DNA of 64,000 bases from Pelodictyon luteolum (lineage in GTDB: Bacteria; Bacteroidota; Chlorobiia; Chlorobiales; Chlorobiaceae): positions 1 through 64,000 of the forward strand of contig DYNE01000008.1 of NCBI GenBank assembly GCA_020721225.1, read 5' to 3'. The notes below the pieces were generated by a model that made no database searches, had not been told where the DNA came from, and saw only the letters and a list, made by a program, of their open reading frames with translations. Both the position numbers and the translations under genes were made by a program. This document shows positions 9,668 to 50,932 of the stretch, piece by piece; the stretch's first letter is position 1, and each line of letters opens with the position of its first letter.

Positions 9668-9770
9668 TCGGGAAGCCCGGTATTGTGTTTTTCTTTATCG
9701 ATGCAATTTGTAAAATAACTAATGCCGTTGTAGATTAACTATATGAAATGTTCTTTGTAGCATTTAACGC

Positions 9771-11287
<1,517 letters not shown>

Positions 11288-11292
11288 AACCG

Positions 11293-12369
11293 ATGAGGGA
11301 TTACAGGGAGCTCATTTCAGAGAAGACTCGATATTTTGTATCGCAAAAACCGTTTGCAACAGAGTTTGGCGGCGTGCTGCCTGAACTGCGAATCGCCTAC
11401 AGAACATGGGGAAAACCTGATCAGGAGAAGAGTAACGTTATTCTGATCTGCCATGCTTTGACCGGCTCGGCCGATGCCGATGCCTGGTGGGACGGGATGT
11501 TCGTCAATGGGGGGGCGTTCGACGAGGGAAAGGATTTCATTATCTGCAGCAATGTGCTTGGAAGCTGTTATGGTACTACCGGACCGTTGTCGCTGAATCC
11601 GCTGACAGGCCGTCATTACGGGCCTGATTTTCCCCGGATCACTATCCGCGACATGGTGCATGCCCAGAAACTGCTGCTTGATGAACTCGGTATCGATCGC
11701 ATTCGTCTTGTGGTCGGTGCTTCACTTGGCGGCATGCAGGTGCTCGAATGGGGATTCCTTTATCCGAAGATGGTACAGGCCATGATGCCGATGGGGGTTT
11801 CAGGACGGCATTCGTCATGGTGCATCGCCCAGAGCGAAGCTCAACGCCAGGCTATCCATGCCGATCGCGACTGGAACGGCGGGTGGTATGCGGCAGATTG
11901 TCCGCCGGCTTCAGGTCTGGCGGCAGCGAGGATGATGGCTATGTGCAGCTACCGGAGTTTCGAGAATTTCCAGTCCCGTTTCGGGCGTGATGTTCAGGAT
12001 GACGGATTGTTCCGGGTGGAGAGCTATCTGCACTATCAGGGGCGGAAACTGGTTGACAGGTTTGATGCCAACACCTACGTGACCCTGACGAAAGCGATGG
12101 ATATGCATGATCTTTCGAGGGGAAGAGGTGTTTATGAGGAGGTTCTCGGTTCGTTGCAGATACCGGTGGAGATTCTCTCCATCATCAGCGATGTGCTCTA
12201 TCCAAAAGAGGAGCAGGAGGAGCTCGGACGGCTCATGCGGCATTCACGGGTGATATATCTCGACGAGCCATTCGGTCATGACGCATTTCTCATCGACGTC
12301 GAAAAAGTTGGCCGCATGGTTACGGAGTTCAAGGATGAACGGGCAGTCAAGGCGCACAGCGCAGCCTGA
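11293..12369 (+). CDS. metX: Homoserine O-acetyltransferase
   Basis: NVILICHALTGSADAD, NVLGSCYGTTGP, VVGASLGGMQVLEW. Confidence 0.94.
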   Translation: MRDYRELISEKTRYFVSQKPFATEFGGVLPELRIAYRTWGKPDQEKSNVILICHALTGSADADAWWDGMFVNGGAFDEGKDFIICSNVLGSCYGTTGPLSLNPLTGRHYGPDFPRITIRDMVHAQKLLLDELGIDRIRLVVGASLGGMQVLEWGFLYPKMVQAMMPMGVSGRHSSWCIAQSEAQRQAIHADRDWNGGWYAADCPPASGLAAARMMAMCSYRSFENFQSRFGRDVQDDGLFRVESYLHYQGRKLVDRFDANTYVTLTKAMDMHDLSRGRGVYEEVLGSLQIPVEILSIISDVLYPKEEQEELGRLMRHSRVIYLDEPFGHDAFLIDVEKVGRMVTEFKDERAVKAHSAA

Positions 12370-12504
12370 TCGGGATATTTTTTTTTGATTTTGCAGCCGG
12401 CGACCGCTCTCTTGCAGGGCTCGGGAAAATTTTCGTTTGTTATTCCTGATACAGATATGCGGTTATCTGCCCGCCGATTCGTGTAAATCAGTGGGAATGC
12501 GCGG

Positions 12505-12725
12505 GCATAAAAAAGGAGAATCGCTTCGCGGGAGTATCGCGCGCCGCGCGGCATCGGATTATTTTCTTTCTTCACCTCCCGTCTTCTGCCGCGAAGCGAT
12601 TCTCCAGCAATGCGAAGCGAGCTATACTCCGCGATGCGACAGCGAGCATACTCCCGTTCGTCCCGCGAACGATACTCCTCATCTTCGCCAACAAATTGTT
12701 CACTACCCACAATCCTCTTCTTTCC
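12505..12725 (-). repeat. GAGTAT/hairpin-spacer intergenic element, copy A
   Basis: The reverse complement closely matches 17164-17368 (e.g. GATGAGGAGTATCGTTCGCGGG.CGAACGGGAGTATGCTCGCTGTCGCATCGCGGAGTATAGCTCGCTTCGC). Confidence 0.85.
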
Positions 12726-12782
12726 ATGCCATCGTCACATGGCTTCGGACTCATGGGTGCCTGAGTGAATTGGAATTGGAAT

Positions 12783-12858: not shown

Positions 12859-14142
12859 TCAGCCGATGATGTCGAATCCGGTGTAGGGTCTGAGAACTTC
12901 GGGAACGATAACCCTGCCTTCAGGAGTCTGGTTGTGTTCGAGCAGCGAGACCATGAGGCGTGAGGTGGCAAGTCCCGAGCCGTTCAGGGTATGCACGAAT
13001 TCCGGTTTCGCCTTGCCTTCCGGACGGTAGCGGATGTTCATGCGCCGCGCCTGGTAGTCCTCGAAGTTGGAACAGCTCGACGCTTCGAGGTATTTGTCTT
13101 CGGCAGGCGACCAGACCTCGATATCGTAGCATTTCGTAGCGTTGGCGCTGATATCTCCACTGCAGAGCAGAAGAACCCGGTAGGGAATCCTGAGCGCCTG
13201 CAGGATAGCTTCCGCATGCCCGAGGATGGCTTCGAGCGCTTCATAGGATGCTTCGGGCCGGGTGAAGCGAACCATTTCGACCTTGTTGAACTGGTGGACC
13301 CGCAGAAACCCCCTGGTGTCTTTTCCGTAGCTTCCGGCTTCCCTTCTGAAACATGCCGAGTATGCAGTATAGGCTACCGGCAGGTCCGCGGCATCGAGCA
13401 TTTCTCCGCGGTGCAGGTTGGTTACCGGAACCTCTGCGGTCGGAATGGCGAAAAGTCCGTCTTCCTCTATGGTATAGACCTGATCGGCGAATTTAGGCCA
13501 TTGCCCGGTACCCCTGAGCGATTCGCGATTGACAAGGAACGGCGGAAAGATTTCGGTATAACCGTGGCAAGAGGTGTGCGTGTCGAGCATGAAATTGATG
13601 AGTGCCCGTTCCAGCCGAGCTCCTTTACCGGTATAGACAGGAAATCCGGCTCCGCTGACTTTGGCGCCTCGTTCGAAGTCAAGGATACCGAGCGATTTTC
13701 CAAGTTCGGTATGATTTTTCAGCGGGAAGTCAAGCGAATAGTCAAATCCACCCTGTTCTTTACAGATAACGTTCTCTTCGGCGCTTTTGCCGACAGGGAC
13801 GGAGTGGTGCAGTCTGTTGGGAAGAGATAGCAGGATCTCTTCGATTGCCGATTCAAGGTTTTTAAGCGAACTGTCGCTTGTTGCAATATCTTCTGCAACT
13901 GCTTTCATTTGCTGTATAAGCTCATTGGCAGGTCCGCTGCCGGATTTTTTCATGTCGGCTATCTCACGGGAGACCCTGTTGCGCAGGGCTTTCATTTCGT
14001 CGGCTTGCTGTACCAGCTCCCGGCGCTGCCGGTCAAGGTCAAGGAGTTCGGAAACCTTTGGTATTTCGTTTTCAAGCAAACGGTTGCCGAGCATGGCGAT
14101 AATGTCGTCCGGATTCTGGCGGATATTGGTAATGTCAAGCAT
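12859..14142 (-). CDS. serS: Seryl-tRNA synthetase
   Basis: [18 protein letters not shown]; class II motifs [38 protein letters not shown]. Confidence 0.95.
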
Positions 14143-16824: not shown

Positions 16825-16874
16825 GATAGCGCGGAGATGGTATTTACCAATTCTATTTGAATAATGCGTTTATA

Positions 16875-17123
16875 CCTGAATTCCCGGAGAATTATAACAA
16901 TACCAGGTCAAGGACGGGAGTATCGTGCCTCGGGGAGGTTTATCCGTAGCAGAAAATACTCTGATGAAGAGGGGGAGTTGCCCACGAATTACACGAATTT
17001 GCACGAAAGGAAATTGGCAGTTGGTTTTCTCTGGCTTCGCCGATAAAAACAACTGCCGGGGTTTCAATTAAGAGACAAATTGATTTGTGGCGACCATGGT
17101 TACATTTTCTCCGGGAATTCAGG
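16875..17123. repeat. Segment bounded by 17 bp perfect inverted repeats (CCTGAATTCCCGGAGAA / TTCTCCGGGAATTCAGG)
   Basis: Arms 16875-16891 and 17107-17123; the right arm is part of the 45 bp repeat. Confidence 0.75.
17079..17123 (+). repeat. 45 bp direct repeat, copy 2
   Basis: Identical by eye to 11-55. Confidence 0.9.
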
Positions 17124-17163
17124 TTTATAATCCAGGGTCAAGCAATGAGGGAAAGGGAAGAAG

Positions 17164-17368
17164 GGGATTGTGGGCTGTGAGCAGTTTGCGGTGGGCGAAG
17201 ATGAGGAGTATCGTTCGCGGGGCGAACGGGAGTATGCTCGCTGTCGCATCGCGGAGTATAGCTCGCTTCGCTTTGCCGGAGTATCGGGCGGCTTGCCGCC
17301 CGGGAGTGAGGAGTTGAAGAAAGAGACGTTCTTCTCCCGCGAAGCGATACTCCTTTTTCTGCCCATGA
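17164..17368 (+). repeat. GAGTAT/hairpin-spacer intergenic element, copy B
   Basis: GAGTAT at 17206, 17230, 17254, 17279 and a degenerate copy at 17304; matches copy A in opposite orientation. Confidence 0.85.
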
Positions 17369-17448
17369 ATGCATATATGTAATGGAAATGGAATCAGGTC
17401 ATGCGGAAGACGCGGCAACGCCCCGTTTGTGACGGGGCGTGCGAGGGG

Positions 17449-48193: not shown

Positions 48194-50485
48194 ATGTATC
48201 CTGATGGTACCCGTCGTATCAGGATTACGGTAAACGGTATCGTGCAGGGGGTGGGGTTTCGTCCTTTTGTTTACCGTCTTGCCTGTACGCGATCGATACA
48301 GGGGTTTATCAGGAACACCCCTTCGGGAGTCGTGATCGAGGCTCAGGGAGCGGGGGAGACGCTCGAAGGGTTTCTCACGGAAATTGAGCGCCATCCGCCT
48401 CCGCTTGCAAGAATCACGGCTCTGGAGACCGTTTCCGTTTCCTGTGAGCCGTGCTCCTGTTTTGAGATCGATCTCTCTGTTCATGGTCACGAGGTTGAAA
48501 CGTTGATCCCGCCGGATATAGCGCTTTGCGAAAGCTGCCGCAGTGAGCTTTTCGACTCGCGGAACCGGCGGTTCCGTTATCCGTTCATCAATTGCACTGA
48601 TTGCGGACCGCGATACACGATCGTCGAGAGCATTCCCTATGATCGTCCGTTTACCTCCATGAAGGGGTTTCCCTTATGTCCGGATTGCGCGGAGGAATAT
48701 CGGGATCCCCTTGACAGGCGTTTTCACGCTCAGCCCAATGCATGCCCCGTATGCGGTCCGGCAGTTATGCTTCTGGACTCTTCCGGAAATCGCCTTGCTG
48801 CCGACAGGGTTATACGGGAGGCTTCTGCCATGCTCAAGGCGGGAAAGATTGTTGCCGTGAAAGGTGTGGGGGGGTTTCATCTCGCTGTCGATGCCCGTAA
48901 CGGGAGTGCAGTTCAGCGCCTCAGGGATCGGAAGGCGAGGGAGGAGAAGCCTTTTGCCGTGATGATGCGCGATCTTGCATCGGTGCGGCAGATCTGCGTT
49001 GTCGGAAGCGATGAGGCGGCGGCACTCCGTTCTGCGGAAGCGCCCATAATGCTGCTTGAAAAGAGTGCCGGATTCCCTCTGCCGGAGATAATCGCTCCCG
49101 GAAACGACCGTCTTGGCGTGATGCTTCCCTATTCGCCGCTTCACGCCCTGCTGCTCGAAGAGGGACCTGACATGGTGGTGATGACAAGCGCCAATTGCAG
49201 CGATGAACCGGTGCTGCATGACGATGCCGATGCGGTTCTGAGGCTTGTTGGCATTGCGGATGCTTTTCTGGTGCATAACCGTCCGATTCTGCAGAAGTGC
49301 GATGATTCGGTTGCGATTCACCTTTCGGGAGCGCTTCGCCTTTTCAGGCGCAGCAGGGGCTATGTACCCGCTCCGGTTTTGCTCGATGAGGATGGTCCGC
49401 CACTGCTTGCGACAGGAGGAGAGCTGAAAAATACCCTTTGTCTCCTGCACGGCCGAAACGCGATTCTGAGTCAGCATCTCGGCGATATGAAGAATTTCGA
49501 AACGTGGCAGTTTTTCACGGATGCGGCACGGCATCTGCAGGAGCTGTTCCGTACCAGTCCGGAGCTTGTCGTGCATGATCTGCACCCGGATTATCTTACT
49601 ACCCGATGGGCATCGATGCAGCCTCTTCCGCTGCTTGGCGTACAGCATCATCATGCCCATCTTGCCGCCTGTCTGGCCGAGAACGGGGAGCACTCTCCGG
49701 TTATCGGCCTTGTGCTTGACGGTACGGGATATGGCCCGGACGGCACCATATGGGGAGGCGAAGTGCTGATTGGCGATTGTGCCGGAGTCGAGCGCTTTGC
49801 TTCGCTGGAAGCGATGCCGCTTCCCGGTGGAGATGCCGCGATTCTCGAACCCTGGCGAGCAGCTCTGGGTTATCTTTACAGAAGTTGTCCTGAAATTCCG
49901 GACCTCCCTTTTCTTCGCGATGTCATGAGCGACGAGGTGACGGAACTGCTTGTGCGAAACCTTCATTGTCCGGAAACTTCAAGTTGCGGACGGTTGTTCG
50001 ATGTCGTGGCCGCAGTCGCAGGGCTTCGGAACAGGGTTTTTTACGAGGGCCAGTCGGCGGTCGAGCTTATGCAGGCGGCCGGCGGCCGGTTGGGTTCCGG
50101 TCGTTTCAGCAGCGGCGTGGAGGTGCGCGATGGACGGCTGGTGATGCTTGTGGCTCCGTTGGTGCGCGACGTAGCTTCTGCTGTTGGAGACGGGATGCTG
50201 CCAGGGGAGATCAGCAGGCGTTTCCATCGTACGCTGTGCGATATGCTGCTCGACGTAACCCGAAGGGCATCATCCGCTTCGGGGATATGTACGGTTGCGC
50301 TCAGCGGTGGCGTGTTCCAGAATTCGCTGCTTTTTGAAACGCTTGTCGCCGAATTGCAGGCTTCGGGGTACATGGTGCTGACCCATACGGCGGTGCCGTG
50401 CAACGATGGAGGACTTTCGTTGGGACAGGCGGTTATCGGCAGGGAATATCTGAAAGGGAGGTATGGGGGGGTAATTTATAATTGA
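48194..50485 (+). CDS. hypF: Carbamoyltransferase HypF
   Basis: Acylphosphatase N-terminus GIVQGVGFRPFVYRLA; paired Cys zinc motifs; VQHHHAHLAACLAENG; LSGGVFQN. Confidence 0.95.
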   Translation: MYPDGTRRIRITVNGIVQGVGFRPFVYRLACTRSIQGFIRNTPSGVVIEAQGAGETLEGFLTEIERHPPPLARITALETVSVSCEPCSCFEIDLSVHGHEVETLIPPDIALCESCRSELFDSRNRRFRYPFINCTDCGPRYTIVESIPYDRPFTSMKGFPLCPDCAEEYRDPLDRRFHAQPNACPVCGPAVMLLDSSGNRLAADRVIREASAMLKAGKIVAVKGVGGFHLAVDARNGSAVQRLRDRKAREEKPFAVMMRDLASVRQICVVGSDEAAALRSAEAPIMLLEKSAGFPLPEIIAPGNDRLGVMLPYSPLHALLLEEGPDMVVMTSANCSDEPVLHDDADAVLRLVGIADAFLVHNRPILQKCDDSVAIHLSGALRLFRRSRGYVPAPVLLDEDGPPLLATGGELKNTLCLLHGRNAILSQHLGDMKNFETWQFFTDAARHLQELFRTSPELVVHDLHPDYLTTRWASMQPLPLLGVQHHHAHLAACLAENGEHSPVIGLVLDGTGYGPDGTIWGGEVLIGDCAGVERFASLEAMPLPGGDAAILEPWRAALGYLYRSCPEIPDLPFLRDVMSDEVTELLVRNLHCPETSSCGRLFDVVAAVAGLRNRVFYEGQSAVELMQAAGGRLGSGRFSSGVEVRDGRLVMLVAPLVRDVASAVGDGMLPGEISRRFHRTLCDMLLDVTRRASSASGICTVALSGGVFQNSLLFETLVAELQASGYMVLTHTAVPCNDGGLSLGQAVIGREYLKGRYGGVIYN

Positions 50486-50571
50486 TAATGGATAATTGAT
50501 AATTGATAATGGATAATTGATAATGGATAATGGATAATGGAGAGTGGGGAATTGATAATGGGGAAGGGGGA
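50481..50571 (+). repeat. Degenerate heptamer satellite (ATTGATA/ATGGATA), 13 units
   Basis: Read in 7-nt phase: ATTGATA ATGGATA ATTGATA ATTGATA ATGGATA ATTGATA ATGGATA ATGGATA ATGGAGA GTGGGGA ATTGATA ATGGGGA AGGGGGA. Confidence 0.92.
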
Positions 50572-50932
50572 AAACAGGGTTAAGGAGCTTTCTTTTGCAT
50601 TTGCGCTTCGTATAATCAAACTTGCTCAGTTTCTGGAGCAGGAGAAAAAAGCTTATGTGCTGAGCAAACAGCTTCTGAGGTCTGGTACTTCCATTGGCGC
50701 GCTTGTTCGTGAGGCAGAGCATGCCGAAAGCAGGTCGGATTTTATTCATAAAATGGCGATAGCTCTTAAAGAAGCTAATGAAACTGACTATTGGATCGAG
50801 CTTCTTTATCAGTTACAAATCCTTGAAAGGGAGGGTTTTGATTCAATAAAATCCGACGTCGTAGAATTACTGAAACTCCTGACAGCCATAATCAAATCAT
50901 CTAAAAAGAAATTGATAATTGATAATGGGTAA
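50537..50932 (+). CDS. Four-helix-bundle protein (S23 / 23S rRNA intervening-sequence protein family)
   Basis: ELSFAFALRIIKLAQFLE...LSKQLLRSGTSIGALVREAEHAESRSDFIHKMAIALKEANETDYWIELL; alternate start 50558. Confidence 0.85.
   Translation: MESGELIMGKGENRVKELSFAFALRIIKLAQFLEQEKKAYVLSKQLLRSGTSIGALVREAEHAESRSDFIHKMAIALKEANETDYWIELLYQLQILEREGFDSIKSDVVELLKLLTAIIKSSKKKLIIDNG

Follow-up and report, generated by a model that had tools for sequence, protein, structure and literature searches.

The window analysed here, a stretch of 64,000 nucleotides of Pelodictyon luteolum DNA, contains two related elements built with the heptamer GGAGTAT, which we call copies A and B (Table 1). Copy A lies between two convergent genes, metX (ending at 12369) and serS (ending at 12859). 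A SAM riboswitch (Rfam RF00162) is present at positions 9770–9877, upstream of an O-acetylhomoserine sulfhydrylase-like gene and of metX. In copy B, GGAGTAT is found on the + strand at 17205, 17229, 17253 and 17278, with spacings of 24, 24 and 25, and the shorter GAGTAT therefore starts at 17206, 17230, 17254 and 17279, followed by a degenerate GAGTGA at 17304. The spacers CGTTCGC-GGG-GCGAACG and CGGGCGGC-TT-GCCGCCCG are read directly in the window. The inverted motif ATACTCC, which is GGAGTAT on the – strand, occupies 17347–17353 and belongs to an inverted form, GCGATACTCC, that ends at 17353. GGAGTAT is present 19 times in the window; 100 dinucleotide-preserving shuffles gave 4.5 on average and never more than 8.

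Table 1. Features of copies A and B (window coordinates; MITE, miniature inverted-repeat transposable element)
Feature	Position	Strand	Remarks
Copy A, sibling MITE	12443..12781	-	Contains three GGAGTAT units and an inverted one; flanked by TTA and TAA
Copy B, whole MITE with array	16845..17393	+	Ends match the 25-copy family
Copy B left terminal repeat TACCAATTCTATTTGAATAATGC	16845..16867	+	Related to the right end of the IS630-like element
Second small element nested in copy B, 249 bp	16875..17123	.	17-bp terminal inverted repeats CCTGAATTCCCGGAGAA
Left array	17205..17309	+	GGAGTAT x4 and degenerate GAGTGA, alternating with 17-18-nt units, some of them perfect palindromes
Inverted unit CCCGCGAAGCGATACTCC (on +)	17335..17353	-	Predicted to pair with the first left unit when the whole array folds
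Copy B right terminal repeat TGCATATATGTAATGGAAATGGAA (on +)	17370..17393	-	

An earlier note on this DNA had described the array from its sequence, and the GAGTAT and GAGTGA positions, the hairpin spacers and the inverted right-end form that it gave were all located as written. The limits that it set, 17164–17368, fall short of the unit carrying the array, which is the whole of copy B, nested 249-bp insert included. Its statement that the layout is not that of a MITE was mistaken, as the MITE ends lie just beyond these limits. The genome-wide search for GGAGTAT–spacer–GGAGTAT that it proposed did reveal further copies. The pattern GGAGTATN{15,20}GGAGTAT has 71+99 = 170 matches in the genome from which the window comes (hereafter the host genome; 2.62 Mb in 144 contigs), versus 0 for the reversed control; copies were examined in stretches fetched around the listed matches, together with genome counts. 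The regular 24–25-bp spacing of a constant motif could evoke a degenerate CRISPR made of GAGTAT repeats and unique spacers, but this reading is as good as excluded, because the constant part is only 7 bp long and the ‘spacers’ recur, a limited set of units being reused at many loci (one of them 20 times in the sample). Many of these spacers are moreover palindromic, and both array orientations occur within one element.

Alignment of the flanks of 38 fetched stretches and of the two window copies places most arrays inside a larger element whose outer sequences are constant; it starts with TTCCAATTCTATTTCAATAATGC and ends with TGCATATTTGTATTGGAAATGGAA. Full-length MITEs delimited by both ends number 25, with lengths of 312–1033 bp, and 23 of them are flanked by an exact 3-bp target duplication, TNA (14 TAA, 7 TTA and 2 TCA). 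Since no TA is present in the TCA/TCA copies, a simple TA duplication is excluded and the duplication is TNA; a G precedes the left duplication in 17 of the 23 cases. The MITE ends are 23 bp long and, when the consensus ends are compared, form imperfect inverted repeats of each other. About 40 copies of each end are present in the host genome, and almost none in other genomes of the genus. In 6 of the 25 MITEs the insertion coincides precisely with the codon that ends a long reading frame, and the duplication restores this stop. Six MITEs among the 25 have these ends and no GGAGTAT array, and about six arrays located away from contig edges have no recognizable MITE ends, which shows that array and MITE are not strictly coupled. 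In three of the array-less copies (L069, L085 and L090) other repeats (GGTATTCAGTAGCCGG, CACGGATTTTCACGGATT) fill the interior, making the MITE body a patchwork of repeats of several types.

Neither window copy is flanked by a perfect target duplication. Copy B, with ATT and TCA as flanks and no intact duplication, is an old or degraded copy of the MITE. The small element nested in it is flanked by duplicated TTTATA (16869–16874 and 17124–17129), and the uninterrupted MITE copies supply the empty site for this insertion. A second inverted repeat of the CCTGAATTCCCGGAGAA type, at positions 39–55, is one end of a further copy of this small element at the very start of the window. By BLAST, copy A is absent from the related genomes G059 and G004, in which metX and serS are separated by no more than a few tens of bases. 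This empty site is not base-precise, because these relatives differ by about 20% and the entire intergenic region differs.

When the genus was searched under relaxed conditions for the right end of the MITE, one such end proved to be followed by an IS630-type reading frame. A protein search with this frame gave matches in 16 of the 65 genomes of the genus, and no match in the assembly of the host genome. Intact copies of this IS in same-genus genomes are about 1118 bp long and comprise two overlapping frames, the first matching HTH_23 and HTH_33, the second DDE_3 and the NCBIfam IS630 model; several copies are flanked by TAA/TAA or TTA/TTA duplications. The left end of the MITE matches the right end of the IS over 57 bp without gaps, including the end of the transposase gene, with a score of 59, whereas none of 1000 shuffles scored above 22. 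The match between the right end of the MITE and the left end of the IS is weaker (18 bp, score 26 versus a shuffle maximum of 24). The IS itself carries no GGAGTAT array. The direct conclusion from these alignments is that the MITE ends and the IS ends share descent. That the MITE was moved in trans by an IS630-like transposase can only be inferred, because the matching transposase was not found in the host genome and the MITE ends were not found at the IS630/DDE_3 genes examined there. The candidate parent resembles IS630-family IS in its DDE_3 transposase encoded in two overlapping frames, and its terminal repeats are related to those of the MITE; the latter differs from such IS in lacking a transposase gene and in its 3-bp TNA duplication, whereas TA is the duplication generally given for the IS630 family. 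Other transposases of the host genome, of the PF01609 type (IS4-, IS1182- and IS1634-like by appearance), were also considered, and the MITE ends are absent from the parts read. Short IS630 derivatives that retain the left end but nothing of the transposase gene beyond its first 28 or so codons are present in several copies per genome (L226, L233 and L240 in genome G075; L232, L239 and L241); they are probably simple MITEs of the same parent IS.

The possibility of a REP-like mobile repeat, raised in the earlier note, was right as to the mobile repeat and wrong as to REP, the DDE-type IS630 ends and TNA duplications being those of a MITE. A stronger form of this idea is that the units themselves are REP-like, with GGAGTAT as the 5' tag of a palindrome spread by a RAYT (a Y1 tyrosine transposase) and piled up inside the MITE, which we consider very improbable. 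The units do look like REPs, with a short constant tag and then a palindrome, some arrays lack MITE ends, and the host genome contains five Y1_Tnp genes; the four that were scanned all match the NCBIfam model of REP-associated transposases, one of them above the cut-off. As in REP and BIME sequences with their RAYTs, high-copy extragenic palindromes stand beside a short constant tag, but known REP tags are GTAG or CGTC and not the heptamer GGAGTAT, no RAYT is linked, and the carrier is a terminal-repeat transposon with target duplications (PMC2817692, PMC3733652). The search for an associated RAYT, also proposed previously, found no GGAGTAT array in the fetched flanks of the five Y1/RAYT-like genes, and the palindrome flanking the RAYT above the cut-off is another one, GCGGAGC..GCTCCGC. 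Furthermore, many units, the commonest one included, are not palindromes. Finally, whole elements have target duplications and terminal repeats, and Y1 transposition is not known to make either. A REP-associated tyrosine transposase gene (L113, 337–1020) has GCGGAGC..GCTCCGC palindromes at its start and within its reading frame.

The 109 units sampled represent 54 distinct sequences. At some positions the units are perfect palindromes unlike each other in sequence (CGTTCGC..GCGAACG, CGAGCAC..GTGCTCG, CGGATGC..GCATCCG and CATTCGC..GCGAATG); the commonest unit, GCTCGCTGTCGCATCGC, is not palindromic, nor are many others. Among 21 distinct palindromic units, 95.9% of the cells are paired versus 75.9% in shuffles, a percentage that is partly due to selection, as these units were picked as being of the palindromic kind. 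The two-sided sequence change is not affected by this choice, and the covariation score of the same 21 units is 0.61; shuffles give 0.24, and slid structures no more than 0.13. The covariance check suggested for the spacers thus gives a positive answer, palindromic spacers covarying across copies, and this covariation results from the exchange of entire modules as much as from compensatory point changes.

These properties bear on the idea that the array is a functional structure selected at gene ends, for which the MITE is only a carrier. It could be a binding array for a protein or a structured RNA, both raised in the earlier note, or else a terminating RNA. Palindromic units stay paired despite changed sequences, some insertions lie directly at stop codons, and the array of copy B is predicted to fold better than shuffles (z –3.5 as RNA, z –4.5 as DNA), mainly because the first unit on the left pairs with the inverted one on the right. 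Nevertheless, we regard this idea as unlikely: swapping of whole palindromic modules yields equal covariation with no need for selection on each copy, MITEs with the same ends and no array exist, a simple scan revealed no promoter-like or terminator-like site in the array, and the array and element have no Rfam match at the gathering score. At a permissive threshold, the sole Rfam match was just outside the element and far below its cut-off. Any cellular function of the array is hypothetical.

A difference in module number is seen at an insertion shared by the host genome and G059, where flanks and arrays are largely identical and one 16-bp module is missing in the host genome, the cut falling between CGATACTCC repeats. 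The two copies thus provide direct evidence of a one-module difference in place. Loss in the host genome is the simpler direction, because this module is standard in other copies. At the same insertion, the MITE of the host genome carries a separate insert of about 150 bp; this insert (L048 against L186) contains palindromes of the CCCGACAAGTCGGGAT type.

Our preferred reading, which we hold to be highly probable, is that the array is the interior of an IS630-type MITE moved in trans, in which an internal cassette gains and loses hairpin modules. As a MITE the element is of an ordinary kind; its unusual traits are the cassette of hairpin modules and the TNA duplication. The MITE would be moved in trans into TNA sites by an IS630-like transposase, which was not found in the host assembly. 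Some insertions coincide with a TAA or TGA stop codon, and there the duplication restores the stop. Within the element, tandem modules composed of the heptamer GGAGTAT and a unit of about 17 bp would be gained, lost and swapped. Slippage or recombination between GGAGTAT repeats is the likely route for these changes, given the one-module loss seen at the shared insertion. The opposed left and right arrays and the small palindromes may let the element fold on itself, and such self-folding is probably tolerated beside gene ends. A further step would be that the modules form a second, smaller mobile or self-exchanging unit that spreads between arrays, and also beyond MITEs, through cutting or recombination at the heptamer. 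We judge this extension unlikely; if true, the MITE would be a platform that collects and shuffles hairpin cassettes.

Triple arrays number 84 in the host genome and 5 in each of two other genomes of the genus. A distant member of the phylum has a single match, which looks unrelated, and the other genomes searched, about 390, have none. In public species genomes, one exact unit is present only in Chlorobi metagenome assemblies; viral contigs gave no match to a unit, and plasmid and phage records gave none to the MITE. Many arrays are located at contig ends (L003, L005, L032, L043, L046, L062, L066 and others), and the repeat family therefore probably fragments the host assembly, accounting for part of its breaks, and its true copy number is probably higher than counted.

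The closest parallels in architecture are found in Streptococcus pneumoniae. BOX elements have the composition boxA-(boxB)n-boxC, in which fixed ends surround a variable number of boxB modules; like the MITE described here, BOX is a small dispersed MITE-like repeat, its ends are proposed to be recognized by a resident IS, and module number at one locus differs between strains (PMC3049150). The host is different, and here the modules are about 24 bp long, combine a constant heptamer with interchangeable palindromes and form two opposed arrays; in addition, BOX ends resemble ISSpn2, whereas those of the Chlorobi MITE are of the IS630 type (PMC3049150). RUP is a MITE with ends like those of IS630-Spn1, which is its proposed mover, and shares with the present family IS630-family-like terminal repeats, an intergenic location and a high copy number; however, RUP is a simple 107-bp element with TA targets, whereas here targets are 3-bp TNA and the body is longer, variable and provided with a hairpin-module cassette (PMC2229807, PMC3049150). 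The Chlorobi MITE can be likened to BOX built on IS630-type ends, by architecture alone and with no claim of sequence membership in BOX or RUP.

For green sulfur bacteria, we found no description of this repeat in the open-access literature, subscription papers and ISfinder being outside the search. This work adds a well-delimited MITE family and its likely parental IS in a Chlorobi genus, for which the open-access papers searched describe none. The family brings to light a modular design like that of BOX in an unrelated phylum, and with it an IS630-type element that has a TNA rather than a TA duplication. The interchangeable palindromic modules offer a tractable case for studying the expansion of hairpin cassettes inside transposons. 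Elsewhere in the window, a tandem array of 7/21-bp units (TAATTGATAATTGATAATGGA) is present at positions 50472–50572.
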